From Candidatus Omnitrophota bacterium (lineage in GTDB: Bacteria > Omnitrophota > Gorgyraeia > Tantalellales > Tantalellaceae): a stretch of DNA of 32,111 nt. Position numbers and translations under genes: made by a program. The first letter of the stretch is position 1; the number at the start of each line of letters is the position of its first letter. The stretch covers positions 1 to 32,111 of the forward strand of contig WJMG01000046.1 in the NCBI GenBank assembly GCA_014728075.1, written 5' to 3'. The notes under the pieces are model-generated. The model searched no databases. It saw only the letters and a list, made by a program, of their open reading frames with translations, and was not told the DNA's origin. Shown in pieces: positions 2,462 through 17,587 of this stretch.

Positions 2462-3595
2462 ATGAGCAGTAAAATAGGGCCGCTGATCGCAGGCGGCCTG
2501 GAGATAAAAGTACCCATTATACAGGGAGGGATGGGGGTGCGGGTATCTACCGCTCCTCTGGCCGCCGCCGTCGCGGAATGCGGGGCGGCGGGGACCATCG
2601 CGAGCGTGGGCCTTCCTCCGGATACCCCGGAGAACAGGGCCGATGTTCCGAAGTCTTCCCGGGAACACCTGAAAAAGCAGATCAGGCAGGCTAGAAGCCT
2701 GACAGACGGTGTGATAGGCGTGAATATCATGGTCGCCCTCAGCAATTATGAGGATATGGTAAGGACCGCCGCTGGCGAAGGGGCCGATTTCATCATATCC
2801 GGTGCCGGCCTGCCCGTAAGCATGCCCGAATTCGCCGAAGGAAGCGAAACCCGGCTCATACCTCTTATAGCTTCCGCCAGGGGGCTGAAGGTCCTGCTGC
2901 GTACATGGGAAAGAAGGTATAAGCGCCTTCCGGACGCCGTGATAGTGGAAGGCCCGCTTTCCGGGGGCCACATAGCGGGATATAGTCTGGAGGAACTTAA
3001 GGACCCCGGGCATAAAATGAGAAAAGACAATGTCCTGGAAAAGGCTTTGCAAGATGTTATTGAACTGGTAGGGGAATACGGAAAGAGGTTCAATAAACAT
3101 ATCCCCGTGATAGCCGCCGGAGGTGTTTTCGACGGAAAGGACATGGCCCGGTTTTTCCGCCTCGGAGCCGAAGGGGTCCAGATAGGCACGCGCTTCGTGG
3201 CGACGGACGAATGTTCGGTCGCGGAGGAGTTCAAACAGCTTTACCTGGCCTCCGGGGAGAAGGACCTTGTTTTCGTGCAAAGCCCGGTAGGAATGCCGGC
3301 CCGGGTTATAAAAACAAAATTCCTTGAAGATGTTTTACGCGGGGAGAAAAAGGACTTTAACTGTAATTACAGGTGCCTCAGGACATGTGACCCGTCTACC
3401 GTCCAGTTCTGTATAGCCAAGGCGCTTATAGACGCCGCGGAGGGAGATATCGATAACGCGATAGTCCTCGCGGGGGCCAACATAGAAAGGGTTACCCGTA
3501 TAATGCCGGTCAGGGAGCTTATAAGTGAAATAATGGCCGAAGCCGGGGAAGCCCTGCAGGCAACAGAGCAAAAGACCGATCGGACTTTCGGATAA
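2462..3595 (+). CDS. Nitronate monooxygenase-like (2-nitropropane dioxygenase family) flavoprotein
   Basis: A 377-residue TIM-barrel flavoprotein. The N-terminus KVPIIQGGMGVRVS is the hallmark of the NPD/FabK family, where it contributes to FMN binding. Further family features are GVNIMVALSNYEDMV, the FIISGAGLP strand, the HIAGY segment after a GGH motif, IPVIAAGGVFDG (phosphate-binding Gly-rich loop) and GAEGVQIGTRFVATDE. These enzymes oxidise alkyl nitronates or, in FabK, reduce enoyl-ACP; which applies here cannot be told. Near the C-terminus the pattern CNYRCLRTCDPSTVQFC gives four closely spaced cysteines (residues about 301-318), seen in some NPD-like proteins and possibly metal- or cluster-binding. 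The start uses ATG 2462 with a weak GGAAGG 7 bases upstream. It appears to be a single-gene unit with its own promoter. Confidence 0.85.
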   Translation: MSSKIGPLIAGGLEIKVPIIQGGMGVRVSTAPLAAAVAECGAAGTIASVGLPPDTPENRADVPKSSREHLKKQIRQARSLTDGVIGVNIMVALSNYEDMVRTAAGEGADFIISGAGLPVSMPEFAEGSETRLIPLIASARGLKVLLRTWERRYKRLPDAVIVEGPLSGGHIAGYSLEELKDPGHKMRKDNVLEKALQDVIELVGEYGKRFNKHIPVIAAGGVFDGKDMARFFRLGAEGVQIGTRFVATDECSVAEEFKQLYLASGEKDLVFVQSPVGMPARVIKTKFLEDVLRGEKKDFNCNYRCLRTCDPSTVQFCIAKALIDAAEGDIDNAIVLAGANIERVTRIMPVRELISEIMAEAGEALQATEQKTDRTFG

Positions 3596-3640: not shown

Positions 3641-5104
3641 ATGAGTTCCCGTAAAAAAGCACAGCCTAAACTTGTGGTTGTTTCCAACAGGCTTCCTTTC
3701 AGCAAGGTCCACGACGATAAAGGCGAGTTCCGCTGGGAAAGGTCCACAGGAGGCCTTATAACCGCCATGGACCCCATCCTGAGGTCCACGGGGGGGATGT
3801 GGATCGGCTGGGACGGCCACACCGTAAGCAATATCCACGATTCGTACGCGCAGTTCGATATCGCGGACATCAATTCCGCGGAAAAACACGCCAAAGGCTC
3901 CTACGGGATAGCGGTCGTACCTTTGACCTCGAAAGAATACAGGGAATATTACATAAAGTTCTCGAACGGGGTCCTGTGGGCCCTTTTCCATTATTTCTTC
4001 GAAAAAAGCTCGATAGACATCAAAGCCTGGAAAGTCTACGAGACCGTGAACAAGCGGTTCGCTCATTACATAAACGATGTCACTTCCGAGGACGATATCG
4101 TCTGGGTCCAGGATTTTCACCTTTTCATGGTGCCGTATTTTTTAAGAAAAATGCGGCCGGAGTCCAGGATACATTTCTTTTTGCATACGCCTTTTCCCCA
4201 CATAGATATCTTTTCCATTCTCCCCTGGCAGAGAATAATACTCGAGTCGCTGCTGTGCTGTAATTCCATAGGCTTCCATCACAAGCAGTACCTCAGGAAT
4301 TTCAGGGGGGCAGTGGAGGCCTACCGGAGGGAAAAAAGATCCTCCGGCGAGAGCTCGGTTGAGGAATCCGTCGTCACCAATATATACGCGAACCCCATCA
4401 GCGTTGATTTCGAACTTCTGGACAGGACATCCCGCCTGGAGCGGGTCAGGAAAAGGGCCGGCGAGATCAAGGAAAAAGCCGGATGCTCCAAGGTCATACT
4501 GGGCGTGGACCGGATAGATTATTCCAAGGGGATAAAAGAAAGGCTGCTGGCCCTGGAACTGATGCTGGAGGAGGAGCCCGGCCTCAGAGAAAAGTTCTTT
4601 TACTATCAGCTGGTCGTGCCGAGCCGCGAGGAGCTTGACGCTTACTCGGGCCTCAAGAAGGAGATCGACGAGATCATCGGCAGGATAAACGGCAGGTTCT
4701 CCACCGGGTTATGGACCCCGGTGCATTATAATTACGGTAAACTTCCTTTCAAGGAACTGGTCTCTTTTTACCTCGCCGCCGACATAGCGCTTGTCACTCC
4801 TCTCAGGGACGGGATGAACCTGGTCTGCAAGGAATTCGTAGCCGCGCATTCCGACGAAGACGGGGTGCTGGTGCTTTCCAAGTTCGCGGGGGCGATCGCG
4901 GAGATAAAGAACTGCATAGCGGTCAACCCTTATAATATCGAGGACATAGCGTCGGCCCTCAAGTGGTCGATGAACATGCACGCCCCGGAGCGCAGGAAAA
5001 GAATGCGCAAGATGCGGAAAAAAATAAAACACAACAACATAAACACCTGGCTGGACCGGTGCATGGAATACATGCATGACCGGGAAGACGGCATGCCGGC
5101 CTGA
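3641..5104 (+). CDS. otsA: Trehalose-6-phosphate synthase (GT20 family)
   Basis: A 487-residue retaining glycosyltransferase that joins a nucleotide-activated glucose to glucose-6-phosphate to give trehalose-6-phosphate in the cytosol. Family motifs run in the expected order: [10 protein letters not shown] at residues 11-20, [32 protein letters not shown] (the VWxxDYHL motif with its catalytic-site Asp), [10 protein letters not shown] at about 288-297 (the Arg and Lys bind the donor phosphates), [17 protein letters not shown] and LVLSKFAGA near the C-terminus. Length matches bacterial OtsA. It is separated from the phosphatase gene by 161 bases containing a second promoter, so the two are probably transcribed separately. 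There is no ribosome site before ATG 3641, and the promoter position suggests leaderless translation. Donor specificity (UDP- or other NDP-glucose) is not determined. Confidence 0.95.
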
Positions 5105-5171
5105 CAGCCGTCGAGTTCTCTGTTCCCTCAGTTTTCTGACCAACTGTCACGCGATACTCTGGATGTATTAT

Positions 5172-5200
5172 TTGGGACTTTGGCTAAAATGTGTTATTAT
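5172..5200 (+). promoter_or_regulatory. Sigma70-like promoter for the otsB/GH65 operon
   Basis: TTGGGA (5172-5177) and TATTAT (5195-5200) are 17 bases apart in an AT-rich stretch following the otsA gene. The leader to ATG 5266 is about 58 bases and contains a small GGCC-GGAA-GGCC stem (about 5217-5229). Confidence 0.5.
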
Positions 5201-5265
5201 TATTAATATTAATTAGGCCGGAAAGGCCATCTATCGTTTTAATCCCATTATAATAAGGAGAGAAG

Positions 5266-6882
5266 ATGAGCGACTTTGCTTTCGAAGCCATAATATTCGA
5301 TATGGACGGGGTCATAACCAAGACCGCTCTGGTGCACGCGCGCGCCTGGAAGAAAACCTTTGACGAATATCTTCAGAAACGCGAAAAGGAACACGGAGAG
5401 CCTTTCAGGGAATTCACCCACGACGACGATTACCTGCCTTTTGTTGACGGAAAACCCCGGTATAAAGGGGTCCAGAGCTTTCTTGAGTCCAGAGGTATAG
5501 AGCTTCCCTTCGGGTCTCCCGCGGATACCGGCGAAAAAGAGACCGTATGCGGGCTCGGCAACAGGAAGAACGAGCTTTTCAGGGAAGTGCTGGAAGAGGA
5601 CGGTGTCGAGAGGTACGAGCCGATGATAAAGTTCATAGAGGAGGTGAAGAGCCGCGGGGTAAAGGTCGGGGTAGCCTCTTCCTCGAAGAACTGTGAGCTT
5701 ATACTCGAGAAAGCGGAGGCGATCGACCTTTTCGAGACAAGGGTTGACGGCGTGGTCTCGGAGGACCTCGGCCTCGAAGGAAAACCCGAACCCGACATAT
5801 TCGTGACCGCCACGAGGAACCTGGGCGCGGACCCGGCGCGGACCATAGTGGTGGAGGACGCGACTTCCGGAGTGGCCGCCGGAAGGAACGGAGGTTTCGG
5901 GCTGGTGCTGGGCCTGGCCAGGAAGGATAATGTGGACGCTCTACTGGCAAACGGGGCCGATATAGTGATGAAAGACCTTTCCTATATGAAGATAGACTGG
6001 CTTGAAAGGTGGTTCCAGAGGAAGCCCCAGCATCTTCTTTCCCGATGGGACGAGATAGACAGGCTTACCAAAGTGCAGCTCTGGGAGTTCAGGGACGATG
6101 TTCCCATTTATCTTAACCCGTATTACCTCAGGCCGGGAAGGGATATGTTCGAAAAAGAAAAGACCGTATTCTTTCTTGATTACGACGGGACGCTTACCCC
6201 TATAGTGGACAGGCCCGAAGACGCGGTCATATCCGGCCGCATGAAGGATACCGTGGAGAGGCTCGCGAAGAAGTTCCGGGTATCGATCGTTAGCGGCCGG
6301 TTCAGGGAGGATGTCGAGAAGCTTCTGGGCATAAAAGACCTCCTCTATGCCTGCAGCCACGGTTTTGACATCAGGGGAGAGGGGCTTACGATGATGCATC
6401 CCAAGGCCAAGGAGGTCATACCCGTGGTGGACAACGCGATAGACAGGCTGGAGAAGAAGCTGGGGCACATCGAAGGAGTGCTCATCGAGAAGAAGAAGTT
6501 CAGCGTAGCGGTCCACTACCGTCTTGTCGATGAAGACAAATACCTTGACGAGATAAAAAAGGAAGTTGAGGCTATAAAAGATGAGAACGACGAGCTGCGC
6601 CTCATGAGCGGGAAAAAGGTCTTCGAGCTCTTGCCCAATATCGAATGGGACAAGGGAAAAGCCATAAGATGGATACTGGAGGCCATAAAGCTGGACTGGA
6701 AAGACGCCAATATTATCTATATAGGGGACGATGTGACCGACGAATTCGCTTTCAGGATGATAAGGACAAGAGGCACCGGGATAATAGTATCCGACGAGGA
6801 GCATGTATCCGCGGCGGATTTCCGCCTTAAAGACCCGGAGGAAGTGAGGGAGTTTTTTGAGCAGGCGATCAAAGACATCTAA
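5266..6882 (+). CDS. Fusion: beta-phosphoglucomutase-like HAD domain + trehalose-6-phosphate phosphatase
   Basis: A 538-residue two-domain protein. Residues 1-245 are a HAD enzyme with FDMDGVITKTALVHARAW (nucleophile and acid Asp in DMDG, residues 12 and 14), VASSSKN and KPEPDIF...VEDATSGV...GGFGLV, the pattern of beta-phosphoglucomutase. It would convert beta-glucose-1-phosphate to glucose-6-phosphate. Residues about 298-538 form an OtsB-type trehalose-phosphatase with its own DYDGT nucleophile motif (305-309), VSGR and GDDVTDEFAF (from about 487). The linker 246-297 is rich in aromatic and charged residues. The start is ATG 5266 with AGGAGAG upstream. Its end overlaps the GH65 gene by 26 bases. 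This domain order, continued by GH65, matches what I recall of mycobacterial OtsB1 (Rv2006), where all three are one chain. Phosphatase identity is strong; the mutase assignment rests on motif and context. Confidence 0.92.
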   Translation: MSDFAFEAIIFDMDGVITKTALVHARAWKKTFDEYLQKREKEHGEPFREFTHDDDYLPFVDGKPRYKGVQSFLESRGIELPFGSPADTGEKETVCGLGNRKNELFREVLEEDGVERYEPMIKFIEEVKSRGVKVGVASSSKNCELILEKAEAIDLFETRVDGVVSEDLGLEGKPEPDIFVTATRNLGADPARTIVVEDATSGVAAGRNGGFGLVLGLARKDNVDALLANGADIVMKDLSYMKIDWLERWFQRKPQHLLSRWDEIDRLTKVQLWEFRDDVPIYLNPYYLRPGRDMFEKEKTVFFLDYDGTLTPIVDRPEDAVISGRMKDTVERLAKKFRVSIVSGRFREDVEKLLGIKDLLYACSHGFDIRGEGLTMMHPKAKEVIPVVDNAIDRLEKKLGHIEGVLIEKKKFSVAVHYRLVDEDKYLDEIKKEVEAIKDENDELRLMSGKKVFELLPNIEWDKGKAIRWILEAIKLDWKDANIIYIGDDVTDEFAFRMIRTRGTGIIVSDEEHVSAADFRLKDPEEVREFFEQAIKDI

Positions 6883-9316
6883 CGGCTCAAAGGAGCTGAA
6901 GCCGTCCGAATGGACCCTTGAATACAAGGGTTTTGAGCCCTCGGAAGAGAGCTTGAGAGAAGCCCTCTGCACTCTTTCGAACGGCTATTTCGGCACCAGG
7001 GGAGCGGCCAACGAGGCCTCGGCGTCCAGGATAAGCTATCCGGGCACTTACATCGCCGGGGTCTACAACAAACTGGCCACCGAAATAGCCGGCAGGAAGA
7101 TATACAACGAGGATCTCGTGAACTGCCCGAACTGGCTGCCCGTGACCTTCAGGCTGGCCGGCGGCGAATGGATCTCCCTTGAGGACAGCGAAGTGCTTTC
7201 AAATACCAAACGCCTTGATTTTCGCAGAGGCATCCTTTTCCGTGAGATAGTCTTTTCCGATAACAAGGGAAGAAAGGTTAGGGTGCTGTCCGAGAGGATC
7301 GTACACATGGAATATCCTCATATCGGGGCCATAAGCTATGAGATCCGCCCCGAGGATTACGAAGGGAACCTGTACATACGGTCCTCGCTTGACGGGACGG
7401 TAGAGAACACCGGCGTAGCCAGATACCGTAAGCTGAGGTCCAGACATTTGAAAGCGGACGGACAGGGATTTACCCGCGACGGTATAGCGTGGCTTTCGGT
7501 CGTGACCTCGCGGTCCGATGTCACCATAGCCCAGGCTTCTAAGACCGTTCTTTACAGTAACGGAAAGAAGTTCTCCCCGGAACAGACGAAGTTCAGGAAA
7601 AAAAAGAAAATGGTCCGGCGCGATATAAAGATAAAAGCTTCCAGGGGGGATTCCTTCAGGATAGAGAAGACGGTAGCCATATACACTTCCAGGGACCGGG
7701 GGGTAAAGGACCCGGCCGCCGAGGCGAAAAAAAGCGTCAGGAAGGCTCCGTCCTTTGCCGTGCTCAAGAGAAAACAGGTCAAGGCCTGGGAAGATATCTG
7801 GAAGACCTGCGGGTTCAATGTTGATGACGGCAACGATGTACAGAAGATAATAAATTTCCATACTTTCCATCTCCTTCAGACGGCGACCCGGCATAACAGG
7901 AAAATAGACGCCGCCCTCCCGGCCAGGGGGCTTCACGGGGAATCCTACCGGGGGCACATTTTCTGGGACGAACTGTTCGTGATGCCTCTTTACGATTACC
8001 AGATGCCCGTCGTGTCCCGGGCGCTTCTGAAATACAGGTTTGAGCGTATCGGTAAAGCCAGGGAATACGCGGATGAGGAAGGCTACAGAGGCGCCATGTT
8101 CCCCTGGCAGAGCGGTTCCACCGGGGAGGAAGAGACACAGGTGCTGCATCTTAATCCGATGTCCGGTAAGTGGGGCCCCGATTACAGCAGGAACCAGCGG
8201 CACATTTCTTTCGCGATAGCGTATAATGTGTGGAAATACTGGGAAAGGACCGGAGATAAGGCTTTCATGGACAGATACGGCTCCGAGATATTCCTGTCGA
8301 TAGCCGAATTCTGTTCAAGCCTGGCCGAATTCTCGGAAAAGGACGGGAGGTTCCATACTCACGGGTTGATGGGGCCCGACGAATTCCACGAAAAAATGCC
8401 TTTTTCTGACGAAGCCGGTTATACCGACAACGCTTATTCCAACGCTTTCATAGTGTGGATATTGCTAAAGGCCGAAGAGCTCCTCAATTCAATGTCTCCC
8501 TATAAACGCAGAAGGCTGATGGAAAAGTGCGGGCTGAAGGAAAGCTCGCCGGAGCTTTGGAAAGAGATAACCCGCGCCATGAACCTGATTATCCGTGAAG
8601 ACGGTATAATCGCTCAGTTCGAGGGATATTTCAAACTGAAAGAGCTCAACTGGAAATATTACAGTAACAAATACGGGGATATACACAGGATGGACCGCAT
8701 ACTTAAAGCGGAAGGTAAGAGCCCGAACGCCTATAAGGTGGCCAAGCAGGCTGATGTTCTCATGCTTTTCTATGTCTTTTCGCTGAGAGAGGTGCGTTAC
8801 ATTTTCAGGTCCATGGGATATGATTTCCGCCCCGGAATGCTCCGGAAGAATTACGATTATTACATAAAGCGGACCAGCCACGGCTCAACGCTTAGCAAGG
8901 TAGTCCATTGCTACCTTGCGCATGTCATGGGCAGGAAGAAAGAAGCCTGGAGATGGTATCTGGATGTCCTGGACTCGGACATCAACGATGTGCAGGGAGG
9001 GACTACCCCGGAAGGCATACATACGGGCGTAATGGGAGGTTCGCTTGACATTATCATGAGAGGGTTCGCGGGTATAGACGACGGCGACGGTAAGCTCAGG
9101 ATAGCGCCAAAGCCGCCTTCCCGGATAAGTAAGATCGATTTTACTATGAATTACAGGGAAAAAGAGATTTCCGTGTCCATAAAGGAAAAGTCTTTCTTTA
9201 TGGAACTGAAGAAAAGCGGAGGCGGAAAAGAGCCGTTCGTAATAGAGGTTTACGGGAAAAAGAAAGAGCTTGTCCCGGGAAAACAGTACAGGTTCTCCCT
9301 GAAAAAAGGGGGATAA
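6857..9316 (+). CDS. Glycoside hydrolase family 65 protein (likely trehalose phosphorylase or trehalase)
   Basis: An 819-residue GH65 enzyme. The N-terminal beta-sandwich begins at WTLEYKGFEPSEESLREALCTLSNGYFGTRGA, the family's usual opening. The (alpha/alpha)6 barrel holds RGLHGESYRGHIFWDELFVMP, the general-acid motif GPDEFHE with Glu509, and RTSHGSTLS, which in phosphorylases contacts phosphate. Members act on trehalose, kojibiose or maltose, mostly by phosphorolysis giving beta-glucose-1-phosphate; some mycobacterial and eukaryotic members are hydrolases. Context with OtsA, OtsB and a beta-phosphoglucomutase domain points to trehalose and phosphorolysis. No ATG exists near the domain start: the only usable start is TTG 6857 inside the upstream gene, preceded by GAGGGAG, or else the frame is entered by a frameshift at the T-run 6853-6858. 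Family certain, substrate inferred. Confidence 0.93.
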   Translation: MSRRSKTSNGSKELKPSEWTLEYKGFEPSEESLREALCTLSNGYFGTRGAANEASASRISYPGTYIAGVYNKLATEIAGRKIYNEDLVNCPNWLPVTFRLAGGEWISLEDSEVLSNTKRLDFRRGILFREIVFSDNKGRKVRVLSERIVHMEYPHIGAISYEIRPEDYEGNLYIRSSLDGTVENTGVARYRKLRSRHLKADGQGFTRDGIAWLSVVTSRSDVTIAQASKTVLYSNGKKFSPEQTKFRKKKKMVRRDIKIKASRGDSFRIEKTVAIYTSRDRGVKDPAAEAKKSVRKAPSFAVLKRKQVKAWEDIWKTCGFNVDDGNDVQKIINFHTFHLLQTATRHNRKIDAALPARGLHGESYRGHIFWDELFVMPLYDYQMPVVSRALLKYRFERIGKAREYADEEGYRGAMFPWQSGSTGEEETQVLHLNPMSGKWGPDYSRNQRHISFAIAYNVWKYWERTGDKAFMDRYGSEIFLSIAEFCSSLAEFSEKDGRFHTHGLMGPDEFHEKMPFSDEAGYTDNAYSNAFIVWILLKAEELLNSMSPYKRRRLMEKCGLKESSPELWKEITRAMNLIIREDGIIAQFEGYFKLKELNWKYYSNKYGDIHRMDRILKAEGKSPNAYKVAKQADVLMLFYVFSLREVRYIFRSMGYDFRPGMLRKNYDYYIKRTSHGSTLSKVVHCYLAHVMGRKKEAWRWYLDVLDSDINDVQGGTTPEGIHTGVMGGSLDIIMRGFAGIDDGDGKLRIAPKPPSRISKIDFTMNYREKEISVSIKEKSFFMELKKSGGGKEPFVIEVYGKKKELVPGKQYRFSLKKGG

Positions 9317-9326
9317 GGAGGTAAAA

Positions 9327-9692
9327 ATGGCTAGGAAAAAGATTCTGGTCGTGGACGGCGATATCAACCAGGGAGAACAGCTGGCCCATAAGTTCCAGGA
9401 AAAGGATTTTCAGGCGCGTTCCGTTCCCAGCGGGGAGGAAGCCGTAAAGATACTGCGGGACGAATGGATGGACCTTATTATACTCGCTATAAAACTGCAG
9501 GGGGAGATAGACGGCTTCCAGCTGCTTAAGACCATAAAAAAGGACGAAAAGCTTTCGGAGATACCGATAGTTATAGAGTCCGACAAGCCGGGGGTCAAGG
9601 ATGTGTTCAAGGATATAGGGGCCGTGGATTTTTTCGTAAAACCCTGTCCGGCCTCCGATCTTATAAAAAAAGTCGAGGAGATATTATCATAG
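9327..9692 (+). CDS. Receiver-fold protein lacking the phosphoacceptor aspartate
   Basis: A 121-residue stand-alone CheY-like receiver. The fold pattern is clear: KKILVVDGD at 4-12 (acidic pocket), DLIIL at 49-53, IPIVIES at 79-85 and FFVKP with conserved Lys105. The position that normally carries the phosphorylated Asp, just after DLIIL, is Ala54 (LAIKLQGEIDG instead of LDIxLPGxDG). Phosphorylation in the normal way is therefore not possible, and it is likely a pseudo-receiver acting by protein binding. No output domain is present. It follows the GH65 gene by 10 bases with AAGGAGG, so it belongs to the trehalose operon and may regulate or scaffold something within it. The partner is unknown. 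Confidence 0.88.
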   Translation: MARKKILVVDGDINQGEQLAHKFQEKDFQARSVPSGEEAVKILRDEWMDLIILAIKLQGEIDGFQLLKTIKKDEKLSEIPIVIESDKPGVKDVFKDIGAVDFFVKPCPASDLIKKVEEILS

Positions 9693-9738
9693 GAAAATAC
9701 CGCCGCGCCTCATGCGCACGGTGTCCGGGGAGGTAATT

Positions 9739-10212
9739 ATGAGGGAAAAGAAAGACCGCGTGAAAGACCTCAGCAAAATGCTGAAATCCGTAAAGGCGTC
9801 CGACATCATGACAAAAGATGTGATCGTGACGAAAAAAAGCGCCACGCTGTCGGAAATAGCCGAAATAATGATAGAGAAAAGAATAAGCGGACTTCCGGTG
9901 ATGAGCTCTTCGGGGAAGGTCCTGGGGATAATCACCGAGAACGATCTTTTCATGGTAATGGATATGGTGCGCTCCGGAGATATTCCCCACTCCGGCAGGA
10001 ACGCCAAAAAAGGTCCTACCGTTGATTTTGCCATGTCGACCAAGGTCCATAAGATAAAGACCAATACCAACCTTGAGGATATCATTGTCCTGATGAAGTA
10101 CAAGAACGCCCATACTCTGCCGGTGATGAAAGGCAAAAAGATGGCCGGGGTTATCGGCAGGCGCGATGTTTTCAAGAAATTCTACTCTATCGTCAAGAAA
10201 CTTCACCTGTAA
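9739..10212 (+). CDS. CBS-pair domain protein
   Basis: A 157-residue protein consisting of two CBS motifs and little else. After a basic N-terminal stretch, the first begins SDIMTKDVIVTKKSATLSEIAEIMIEKRISGLPVMSSSGKVLGIITENDL. The second contains VHKIKTNTNLEDIIVLMKYKNAHTLPVMKGKKMAGVIGRRDVFK. CBS pairs bind adenine nucleotides (AMP, ATP, SAM) and sense energy state. The start is ATG 9739, with GGAGG at 9729-9733, rather than an earlier in-frame ATG at 9712. It lies 46 bases behind the pseudo-receiver and is probably the last gene of the trehalose operon, where nucleotide sensing of an enzyme is an attractive but unproven role. Confidence 0.85.
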   Translation: MREKKDRVKDLSKMLKSVKASDIMTKDVIVTKKSATLSEIAEIMIEKRISGLPVMSSSGKVLGIITENDLFMVMDMVRSGDIPHSGRNAKKGPTVDFAMSTKVHKIKTNTNLEDIIVLMKYKNAHTLPVMKGKKMAGVIGRRDVFKKFYSIVKKLHL

Positions 10213-14698: not shown

Positions 14699-14762
14699 GC
14701 CGTGGGCGGGGGATCCGCGGTCACGGCCGAAGCGGCGTAGTTAAAAGTCAGGGAGGTTGGAT

Positions 14763-16187
14763 ATGAGCGCTCAAGGACCGTCTCGCCACCAGCTCAGTGT
14801 TTTCGTGCTGGCGATGATGAATGTTGCCATTATCATGAACCTGAGAGGGCTTCCGATGATGGCCAAGGAAGGATTGCCCATGATATTCTTCCTTCTTTTC
14901 TCGACCTTTATATTTCTTCTGCCTACTTCCCTCGTTTCCGCGGAACTCGCCACCGGATGGCCCGGGGGAGGCGGGGTCTACACCTGGGTCAAGGAAGCTT
15001 TCGGCGGACGGTTCGGTTTCATGGCCATCTGGATCCAGTGGATACAGAACCTTATCTGGTACCCTACCATACTGGCTTTCGCGGCGGGGGCTTTATCCTT
15101 CCTGTTCCTGGACCCGGCTCTCGCCAACAGCAAGGTTTTTAATGTATGCGTGATACTAGCTATATACTGGGGGGCTACGCTGATGAACTTCAAGGGGATG
15201 AAGACATCGGGCTGGCTAACGACAGCCGGAGTGATAGGGGGGACCATACTTCCTGCCGTACTGATAATAATCCTGGGCCTCCTGTGGTGGGGCAAGGGCA
15301 ATCCCCTCGAATTCATGAAGTCATCGCACGGCATCTTCCCGGACTTCAGTAATTTTGATAATATTTCCTTCCTGGCGGGTGTCGTTCTGCTTTTTGCCGG
15401 AATGGAGGTTTCCGCCGTACACGCCCTCGAGGTGAAAGACCCCAAGAAAAATTATCCCCGCGCGATCTTCCTGGCCGCCGGGATAATAATCGCGATATTT
15501 ACCCTGAGCTCTCTTTCAATCGCCGCCGTGATACCTGAGGAGAAGATCAATCTTACCATAGGCCTTATGCAGGGGTTCAAGGACCTGCTCAGCCTTTACG
15601 GGATAGACTGGCTTCTCCCGGTCATAGGGGCCTTGATAGCTTTCGGGGCCATAGGCGCGGTCACGGCCTGGATAGTAGGGCCCAGTAAAGGGCTTCTCGC
15701 TACGGCAAAAGAAGGGGACCTGCCGCCTTTCCTCGCGCGGACCAACGACAACGGTATGCCTACCCATATACTCATCGTCCAGGGAATGATCGTTACGGCG
15801 GTCACGCTGGTTTACCTTTTGATGCCTAATGTCTCAAGCGCTTTTTTTCTGCTGACGGCGCTTACGGCCATTCTCTATCTTATAATGTACATAATGCTTT
15901 TCATCACGGCGATAAGGCTCAGGTACCTGTGTCCGGAAGTTCACAGGACCTACAAGGTCCCTGGAGGGAATGCCGGCATGTGGATAGTCTCCGGCGTGGG
16001 TATACTCGGGGCGATTTTCGCCATAACGGTAGGATTTTTCCCGCCCGCTCAGCTGACTGTAGGAAGCCCGGCTTTTTATGTGCTGTTCCTGACCGCCGGA
16101 ACCGTGCTCTTCGCTGGAGCCCCGCTTCTGATACATCTTTTTAAACGCCCCGATTGGGCCGTGTCCCGGGAGGAGGAAACGAGATGA
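14763..16187 (+). CDS. APC-family amino acid antiporter, glutamate:GABA (GadC-like)
   Basis: A 474-residue, roughly 12-helix permease. The first helices contain NLRGLPMMAKEGLPMIFFLLFSTFIFLLPTSLVSAELATGWPGGGGVYTWVKEAFG, the pattern of the glutamate:GABA antiporter branch. The gene overlaps the glutamate decarboxylase start (ATGA, 16184-16187), so translation is coupled and the partners are almost certainly functional ones: glutamate in, GABA out, one proton consumed per cycle. ATG 14763 is preferred over TTG 14757 because GGAGG (14752-14756) is 6 bases before it. The protein stops soon after the last helix (HLFKRPDWAVSREEETR). E. coli GadC has about 40 further residues forming a pH-dependent C-plug, so this one may lack that gate. 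Precise substrates are inferred from context. Confidence 0.85.
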   Translation: MSAQGPSRHQLSVFVLAMMNVAIIMNLRGLPMMAKEGLPMIFFLLFSTFIFLLPTSLVSAELATGWPGGGGVYTWVKEAFGGRFGFMAIWIQWIQNLIWYPTILAFAAGALSFLFLDPALANSKVFNVCVILAIYWGATLMNFKGMKTSGWLTTAGVIGGTILPAVLIIILGLLWWGKGNPLEFMKSSHGIFPDFSNFDNISFLAGVVLLFAGMEVSAVHALEVKDPKKNYPRAIFLAAGIIIAIFTLSSLSIAAVIPEEKINLTIGLMQGFKDLLSLYGIDWLLPVIGALIAFGAIGAVTAWIVGPSKGLLATAKEGDLPPFLARTNDNGMPTHILIVQGMIVTAVTLVYLLMPNVSSAFFLLTALTAILYLIMYIMLFITAIRLRYLCPEVHRTYKVPGGNAGMWIVSGVGILGAIFAITVGFFPPAQLTVGSPAFYVLFLTAGTVLFAGAPLLIHLFKRPDWAVSREEETR

Positions 16188-17587
16188 TATCGAAAAAAGT
16201 AAAACTTAACAAGTTAAAGGATGAGGACAGGGTAATTAACCCGACTTACGCTTCGAGAGAGCTTAACGATGTCGTGCCCAAATACGAGATGCCTGAAGGA
16301 GAGATGCTCCCGAGGACCGCGTATAACCTGGTACACGACGAGCTTATGCTTGACGGGAATTCCAGATTGAACCTCGCGACATTCGTGACGACCTGGATGG
16401 AGCCGGAAGCGCGGCAGCTCATGTCCGAGACTTTCGACAAGAACATGATAGATAAGGACGAATACCCCCAGACGGCAGAACTGGAGATGAGGTGCGTTAA
16501 CATGCTTTCCCGGCTTTACAACGCGCCCGAGGAAGAGAACGGCTGCGGTTGTTCCACCACGGGTTCTTCGGAAGCCGCCATGCTCGGAGGCATGGCCCTT
16601 AAATGGAAGTGGCGGGAAAGGATGAAAGCGAAAGGCAAGCCGGCCGATAAACCCAACATGGTGCTGGGTATAGATGTGCAGATCTGCTGGGAAAAATTCT
16701 GCAGGTACTGGGAGATAGAGCCCAGGTACATACCCATGGAAAAAGGCAGGTATGTGGTTAGCGCGGAGGAGGTGCTGAAAAGGGTCGACGAGAACACTAT
16801 AGGCGTTGTCGCCATCATGGGGACCACCTTTACGGGCCAGTACGAGCCGGTGAAGGAGCTTAATGACGCCCTTGACAAACTTAACGGGGAAACCGGCTGG
16901 GATGTTCCTATACATGTCGACGCGGCGAGCGGGGGGTTCATAGCGCCCTTCATACAGCCCGATATCGAATGGGATTTCAGGCTAAAGTGGGTGAAATCCA
17001 TAAATGTTTCAGGCCATAAGTACGGCCTTGTTTATCCGGGTGTGGGATGGGCCATATGGCGCGACTGGGAAGAGCTTCCGGAAGATCTGATCTTCAGGGT
17101 CAATTACCTCGGAGGGGACATGCCGACTTTCGCGCTTAACTTCTCGAGGCCCGGGAACCAGATAGTGGCCCAATACTATAATTTCCTGAGGCTGGGCAAG
17201 GAAGGCTACCGCAGGATAATGAGTTCGCTTCACGATACCGCTCTTTACCTTTCGGAGAAAATAGCGGAACTCGGCCCGTTCGAGATCGTGAGCGACGGTT
17301 CGGATATCCCGGTCCTGACCTTCAAGCTCAAGAAAGAGGATAACTATACCGTTTTCGACATTTCCGAAATGATAAGGGACAGGGGCTGGCTTGTCCCTGC
17401 CTATACGATGCCCGAGGATATACAGGACCTGGCGGTATTGCGGGTCGTGGTCAAGGAAGGCTTCAGCCGGGACATGGCCGACCTTCTGATAGCGGACCTT
17501 AAAAGAGTAATAGACCATTTCGAGGACCAGCCCGGCCATAAGCCGAAAAAACCGGAAAAGAAGGGAAAATACCGTAAACACTGCTGA
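16184..17587 (+). CDS. gadB: Glutamate decarboxylase
   Basis: A 467-residue PLP enzyme that decarboxylates glutamate to GABA, consuming an intracellular proton. It matches bacterial GadB in length and along its whole sequence. NPTYASRELNDVVPKYEMPEGEM lies near the N-terminus, GCSTTGSSEAAMLGGMALKWKWR binds PLP phosphate, HVDAASGG carries Asp246 for the pyridine ring, and SINVSGHKYGLVYPGVGW holds the Schiff-base Lys279. FSRPGNQIVAQYYNFLRLG follows as usual. The C-terminal tail is very basic and ends KYRKHC. Start ATG 16184 has GGGAGGAGG upstream and overlaps the antiporter stop. Together they form a standard glutamate-dependent acid resistance unit. Confidence 0.96.
   Translation: MISKKVKLNKLKDEDRVINPTYASRELNDVVPKYEMPEGEMLPRTAYNLVHDELMLDGNSRLNLATFVTTWMEPEARQLMSETFDKNMIDKDEYPQTAELEMRCVNMLSRLYNAPEEENGCGCSTTGSSEAAMLGGMALKWKWRERMKAKGKPADKPNMVLGIDVQICWEKFCRYWEIEPRYIPMEKGRYVVSAEEVLKRVDENTIGVVAIMGTTFTGQYEPVKELNDALDKLNGETGWDVPIHVDAASGGFIAPFIQPDIEWDFRLKWVKSINVSGHKYGLVYPGVGWAIWRDWEELPEDLIFRVNYLGGDMPTFALNFSRPGNQIVAQYYNFLRLGKEGYRRIMSSLHDTALYLSEKIAELGPFEIVSDGSDIPVLTFKLKKEDNYTVFDISEMIRDRGWLVPAYTMPEDIQDLAVLRVVVKEGFSRDMADLLIADLKRVIDHFEDQPGHKPKKPEKKGKYRKHC

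Follow-up and report, generated by a model that had tools for sequence, protein, structure and literature searches.

A gene cluster in a 32,111-nucleotide stretch of Candidatus Omnitrophota DNA (assembly GCA_014728075.1, contig WJMG01000046.1; hereafter the window) raises the question of what its products do with trehalose. The cluster encodes an OtsA-like synthase, a protein in which a beta-phosphoglucomutase (beta-PGM) domain is fused to an OtsB-type phosphatase domain, and a GH65 enzyme. An earlier note on the same DNA had read these genes as a possible closed trehalose cycle, with synthesis through OtsA and OtsB and phosphorolysis of trehalose by the GH65. Our analysis points to another role, in which the fusion and the GH65 together constitute a trehalose-synthesis module that is independent of UDP-glucose; we give this reading a probability of roughly 60%. 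All of the enzyme families are known, and what appears to be new is their proposed arrangement as a synthetic route.

The gene content itself is real. The OtsA, the beta-PGM/OtsB fusion, the GH65, the degenerate receiver, and the CBS protein named in the earlier note were all recovered by profile matches. Chance is excluded because the domain-match E-values range from 1e-17 to 1e-132 across the locus and because fusion and GH65 keep the same order in 41 of the 42 genomes of the phylum sample that have the fusion.

Substrate of the GH65 enzyme and state of its partner domains

Six co-evolving positions sort the specificities of GH65 enzymes, and predictions made from them were confirmed by expression (De Beul et al. 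2021, PMC8537180). They correspond to positions 64, 392, 394, 402, 416, and 585 of the Caldicellulosiruptor kojibiose phosphorylase (CsKP), a numbering that we verified with W391, E392, and T417, and they read TRIGPP in trehalose phosphorylases, EEAPxx in kojibiose phosphorylases, KV[MF]NES in maltose phosphorylases, and DQGQDE in trehalose-6-phosphate (T6P) phosphorylases (T6PP) (PMC8537180). The window GH65, in which all three Pfam GH65 domains (PF03636, PF03632, PF03633) score over cut-off, reads DQGQDE. The first four letters are stable in every alignment; D442 and E619 (CsKP 416 and 585) lie in gappy loops and are alignment-dependent, being D and E when aligned through T6PP-type rows. The same two letters occur in PDB entry 9lb6 and are invariant across the 80 loci of a named-genome scan, all of which carry DQ[GAS]QDE or a one-letter variant. 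Moreover, 9lb6 is the best structural-database match of the window GH65 (500 bits, versus 338 for a kojibiose phosphorylase), acts on T6P by name, and has the same specificity letters. A Caldithrix abyssi enzyme with the identical motif makes T6P from beta-glucose-1-phosphate (beta-G1P) and glucose-6-phosphate (G6P) (PMC8537180). Based on the motif, trehalose, kojibiose, and maltose phosphorylase identities were rejected. Other GH65s in the same class read EEAP, the kojibiose type, or in one case TRIA; the EEAP enzymes (L064:6869-9229, L065, L067, L068, L069) are common there, and several adjoin a stand-alone beta-PGM.

Additionally, four arginines set the T6PP type apart: Arg189, Arg448, Arg611, and Arg614 occur without exception in its rows (89 of 89), and the kojibiose, maltose, and trehalose types lack them. 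This pattern makes the four residues plausible ligands of the extra phosphate of T6P. The general acid Glu is present in GPDEFHE, the phosphate-binding Ser/Ser(Thr) and His are present in HGSTLS and GIH, and His722 is kept, while a CsKP lysine near the phosphate site is replaced by Arg, as in other bacterial relatives. Gln713 occupies the position where FjGH65A has its hydrolase-type Glu, a correspondence based on an offset of nine residues before the His position (PMC8626586). The phosphate site is of the phosphorylase type. Because of the DQGQDE motif, the invariant arginines, and this phosphate site, the substrate of the window GH65 is most likely T6P rather than trehalose. The trehalose specificity assumed in the earlier note is thus not supported, while its link from an inverting GH65 phosphorylase through beta-G1P to beta-PGM is kept.

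The name under which 9lb6 was deposited would make the GH65 a T6P hydrolase that yields glucose and G6P. This is the most improbable of the readings considered here, since 9lb6 itself shows a phosphorylase-like site along with the T6PP motif, the window enzyme combines HGSTLS and His722 with the offset-placed Gln713 where the hydrolase has Glu, and a constantly linked beta-PGM would be superfluous beside a hydrolase. Entries 9lb6 and 9lb7 are both deposited as trehalose-6-phosphate hydrolase yet show DQGQDE and a phosphorylase-like site, and their name may be wrong.

For the fusion, the N-terminal half is a beta-PGM-type HAD domain that scores 160.9 bits against TIGR02009 (cut-off 153.35) and falls below the stricter bPGM equivalog TIGR01990 (110 versus 189.4 bits); its best PDB match, 8h5s, is named beta-phosphoglucomutase. 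Of the catalytic and ligand positions of Lactococcus lactis beta-PGM, 13 of 13 are kept (DDTHRKSSKNKED), including the catalytic Asp pair, Arg49, Ser114/Lys117, Lys145, and Glu169/Asp170 (L. lactis numbering). The beta-PGM identity proposed in the earlier note agrees with this, and degeneration of the domain, a possibility for the N-terminal HAD portion of mycobacterial OtsB2, was rejected. The C-terminal half is a trehalose-phosphatase (TIGR00685, 175.8 bits versus a cut-off of 68.05; PF02358 likewise over cut-off) with DYDGT at fusion residue 305, and the OtsB motifs DYDGT, SHG, EKK..HYR, and GDDxTDE are near-invariant among 52 aligned domains. Judged by these residues, both partner domains look active.

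The GH65, OtsB-like, and GT20 families also cover other substrates, and the window OtsA, whose GT20 membership is clear from its profile score and typical GT20 motifs (Table 1), lies under the cut-off of the NCBIfam OtsA equivalog TIGR02400 (487.7 versus 564.85 bits). The module might then join glucose to another sugar-phosphate acceptor, and the OtsB-like phosphatase would release a compatible solute other than trehalose. We regard this as very improbable, since the specificity motif is shared with an enzyme for which use of G6P has been demonstrated (PMC8537180) and the phosphatase domain scores above the cut-off for T6P phosphatases.

Direction of the module and its relation to OtsA

In the proposed route, the beta-PGM domain would convert G6P to beta-G1P, as suggested by its conserved residues. 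The GH65 would then work in reverse and combine beta-G1P with G6P to give T6P and inorganic phosphate (Pi), its class being taken from the specificity motif and its direction from genome content. Finally, the OtsB domain, given its conserved motifs, would hydrolyze T6P to trehalose and Pi, a step that would confer irreversibility on the pathway. The net reaction would be 2 G6P to trehalose and 2 Pi, at a stoichiometric cost from glucose of 2 nucleoside triphosphates (NTP) per trehalose, versus 3 for OtsA/OtsB. With the first and last enzymes fused and the middle enzyme translated directly behind them, the unfavourable intermediate beta-G1P might be kept local. In the window genome, the conventional OtsA would be a second T6P source for the same phosphatase, and both sources may operate. 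Gene content, motifs, and co-occurrence are observations here; substrate, direction, flux, and regulation are inferences from them. The T6PP of L. lactis has been run in the synthetic direction in vitro with a 93% yield of T6P (PMC13121652).

To place the module in its phylum, we compared 334 Candidatus Omnitrophota genomes, calling a T6PP-type GH65 at 550 bits or more; these are mostly incomplete metagenome-assembled genomes that are related to each other, and the Fisher p-values are nominal. T6PP-type GH65 occurs in 54 of the 334 and OtsA in 190, and just 11 genomes have both. Among the 219 genomes with a beta-PGM/OtsB match, the T6PP-type GH65 is missing from 165, of which 162 have OtsA, and present in 54, of which 11 have OtsA (p = 1e-31); when all 280 T6PP-lacking genomes are taken, 179 have OtsA (p = 3e-9). 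The 43 T6PP-positive, OtsA-less genomes span 14 families at a median completeness of 92%. An OtsA overlooked through genome incompleteness was rejected as the cause, with fewer than 4 misses expected versus the 43 seen. Because several of the 14 families also contain T6PP-negative, OtsA-positive members, the distribution suggests that OtsA has been replaced by the module repeatedly.

The GH65 lies directly 3' of the fusion in the 41 genomes mentioned above, typically after a gap of about 20 nt and usually within 60 nt; the gene order, whose survey in relatives the earlier note had proposed, thus does persist. In the genomes G143, G171, G284, and G313, the three activities are encoded by separate adjoining genes, and G004 has the fusion and OtsA and lacks the T6PP-type GH65. 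A search for the permease component EIIC of the phosphotransferase system (PTS) gave no match in 59 relatives or in the window genome; this rules out T6P import by the known route and leaves OtsB in the OtsA-less genomes without another obvious source of T6P.

These observations bear on the closed cycle, in which the GH65 would be a trehalose phosphorylase and OtsA/OtsB with GH65/beta-PGM would form a recoverable store or a futile cycle. The gene content fits this model, and GH65 phosphorylases do release beta-G1P, the substrate of beta-PGM. However, it is hardly likely: the motif is DQGQDE instead of TRIGPP, a trehalose phosphorylase-like GH65 with TRI, found elsewhere in the phylum (genome G037), sits in a different gene context, and OtsA is absent from most module-bearing genomes of the phylum. 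The last point argues for synthesis rather than a closed cycle, since OtsA is often missing where the module is kept. Moreover, phosphorolysis by this GH65 would compete with OtsB for T6P and would leave stored trehalose unrecovered. As far as tested, the genome holds no enzyme that consumes free trehalose: no GH37 trehalase, second GH65, or PTS EIIC was found in a search that did not include GH15 trehalase, TreS, or TreT.

The main rival is a T6P drain or overflow valve. Here, OtsA would make T6P inside the cell, OtsB would take part of it, and the GH65 would phosphorolyze the excess to G6P and beta-G1P, the latter being returned to G6P by the fused beta-PGM; T6P would thus be controlled or recycled much as by TrePP, the T6P phosphorylase of L. 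lactis, from which the drain differs in that its T6P is not imported. The known direction of L. lactis TrePP (PMC12125463) agrees with a drain, as do the adjacency of OtsA and the module in the window and in five other genomes of the phylum sample and the existence of beta-PGM and T6PP pairs without OtsB, some of them divergent from OtsA/OtsB. Even so, we consider it unlikely. OtsA is missing from 43 of the 54 carriers of this GH65, the relatives showed no known T6P importer, and a competing phosphatase fused to beta-PGM would be wasteful in a pure drain.

Several observations nevertheless weigh against synthesis. The window genome itself carries OtsA, the T6PP whose physiology is known, that of L. 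lactis, works in degradation (PMC12125463), and the phylum sample consists largely of incomplete and interrelated genomes. Of 19 OtsA-less genomes tested, 5 carry TreY; its absence from the other 14, by contrast, favors synthesis, and TreY, which was not found in the window genome either, was rejected as a general substitute for OtsA. Two further points come from outside the phylum. In a sister lineage comprising Bacteroidota, Desulfobacterota, and Chlorobiota, beta-PGM and T6PP-type GH65 occur without OtsB, an arrangement that looks degradative or regulatory, and OtsA is present in 10 of the 16 module-bearing genomes, mostly of other phyla, that were reached via the named loci, and was not found in 6.

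Occurrence in other phyla

The notion that the module always displaces OtsA was rejected on account of those 10 genomes. Six of their OtsA matches are open reading frames (ORFs) of 731-822 aa, long enough for bifunctional OtsA-OtsB proteins. In the named-genome scan, the lineages with mostly OtsB-linked loci include Omnitrophota, Atribacterota, Spirochaetota, Elusimicrobiota, and halophilic Pseudomonadota (Modicisalibacter luteus, Chelativorans intermedius, Marinobacter sp. HL-58), among others. In the Bacteroidota loci L137, L149, L119, and L124, beta-PGM and a T6PP-type GH65 occur without OtsB and divergent from OtsA, with OtsB beside OtsA in L137 and L149; this arrangement suggests a T6P-recycling version of the pair.

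In Actinobacteria, single ORFs of 1222-1399 aa (L189-L194, L199-L203) encode first beta-PGM, then OtsB, and last GH65. Their specificity letters are those of T6PP or close to them, and the beta-PGM part is degenerate in some of these ORFs. Mycobacterium tuberculosis OtsB1 (Rv2006), which we take to have the same domain order, falls within this size range. It has 1327 aa and is described as of unknown function (PMC11046441, PMC12090744), and its deletion is reported to have no obvious phenotype. We see a somewhat better than even chance that the module represents a trehalose route free of nucleotide sugars (UDP- or ADP-glucose) that occurs in several phyla, replaces OtsA in many Omnitrophota, is borne on one polypeptide in Actinobacteria, and would give mycobacterial OtsB1 a function. 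No description of the module as a synthetic route was found in the open-access literature, most subscription journals lying outside the search, and a 2025 review places T6P phosphorylase under degradation only (PMC12125463).

If the module is synthetic, it adds a trehalose pathway that needs no nucleotide sugar and saves one NTP per trehalose, and it would explain OtsB-bearing genomes without OtsA. It would also call for caution before such genomes are labeled trehalose-degrading or trehalose-negative, and would offer for the 1327-residue OtsB1 a function that can be tested directly.

Gene neighborhood and comparison with known systems

The window derives from a genome of 2.1 Mb in 93 contigs that is 94% complete, and its features are listed in Table 1.

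Table 1. Features of the trehalose locus and its neighbors in the window
Feature	Position	Strand	Evidence
FabK/NMO-like gene	2462-3595	+	
OtsA-like GT20, predicted trehalose-6-phosphate synthase, nucleotide-glucose dependent, 487 aa	3641-5104	+	PF00982 442 bits; motifs
beta-PGM/OtsB fusion, 538 aa	5266-6882	+	profile matches in both halves
Fusion N-terminal domain, residues 1-262, beta-phosphoglucomutase	5266..6051	+	TIGR02009; PDB 8h5s; 13/13 sites
Fusion C-terminal domain, residues 291-538, OtsB-type T6P phosphatase	6136..6879	+	TIGR00685, PF02358 over cut-off
GH65, T6P phosphorylase type, 819 aa, TTG start	6857-9316	+	PF03632/PF03636/PF03633; DQGQDE
Stand-alone pseudo-receiver, possible regulator	9327-9692	+	PF00072 62 bits
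CBS-domain pair protein, possible nucleotide sensor	9712-10212	+	PF00571, two copies

The start of the GH65 overlaps the end of the fusion by 26 nt. Between OtsA and the fusion lie 161 bp that contain promoter-like sites, which are weak evidence; because of them, OtsA may belong to a transcription unit separate from that of fusion and GH65. Downstream of the CBS-pair gene, a Rex-like gene has its own promoter-like site. The receiver carries Ala at the phospho-Asp position (LIILAIKL), which makes it a pseudo-receiver, as the earlier note had called it. Seven other genomes have an orthologue of it 3' of their T6PP-type GH65, most of these without the Asp, and in other lineages the module is followed by CBS-pair orthologues of 47-62% identity. 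The stand-alone receiver is a possible phosphorylation-independent regulator of the module. Across lineages, receivers with A, G, or S for the phospho-Asp, followed by a CBS-pair gene, stand behind T6PP-type GH65s at L073, L082, L056/L074, L051, L052, and L081, and the L054 receiver is an exception that retains the Asp. Farther along, at 14757-17587, an APC-type transporter gene precedes a glutamate-decarboxylase-like gene, which by reading only resembles an acid-resistance pair.

Among known systems, the TrePP and beta-PGM pair of L. lactis (EC 2.4.1.216 and 5.4.2.6) likewise couples a GH65 T6P phosphorylase to beta-PGM. There, T6P enters by the PTS and is broken down. In the present case a PTS was not found, and the fusion of beta-PGM to a T6P phosphatase fits synthesis. 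The inverting trehalose phosphorylase pathway (GH65, EC 2.4.1.64) also combines a beta-G1P-yielding GH65 with beta-PGM but is set apart by TRIGPP, as opposed to the DQGQDE of the window. With OtsA/OtsB synthesis, the module shares the T6P intermediate and the OtsB phosphatase, and in the window even an upstream OtsA; in contrast, it could yield T6P without UDP-glucose or OtsA, and OtsA is absent in most module-bearing relatives. A designed in vitro synthesis of T6P, termed new-to-nature, similarly runs T6PP in reverse with beta-G1P and G6P, but obtains beta-G1P from maltose and has no phosphatase step (PMC13121652). Finally, M. tuberculosis OtsB1 matches in size the actinobacterial ORFs of beta-PGM, OtsB, and GH65 with the T6PP motif. 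It differs from the window proteins in presumably holding the three domains in one polypeptide.

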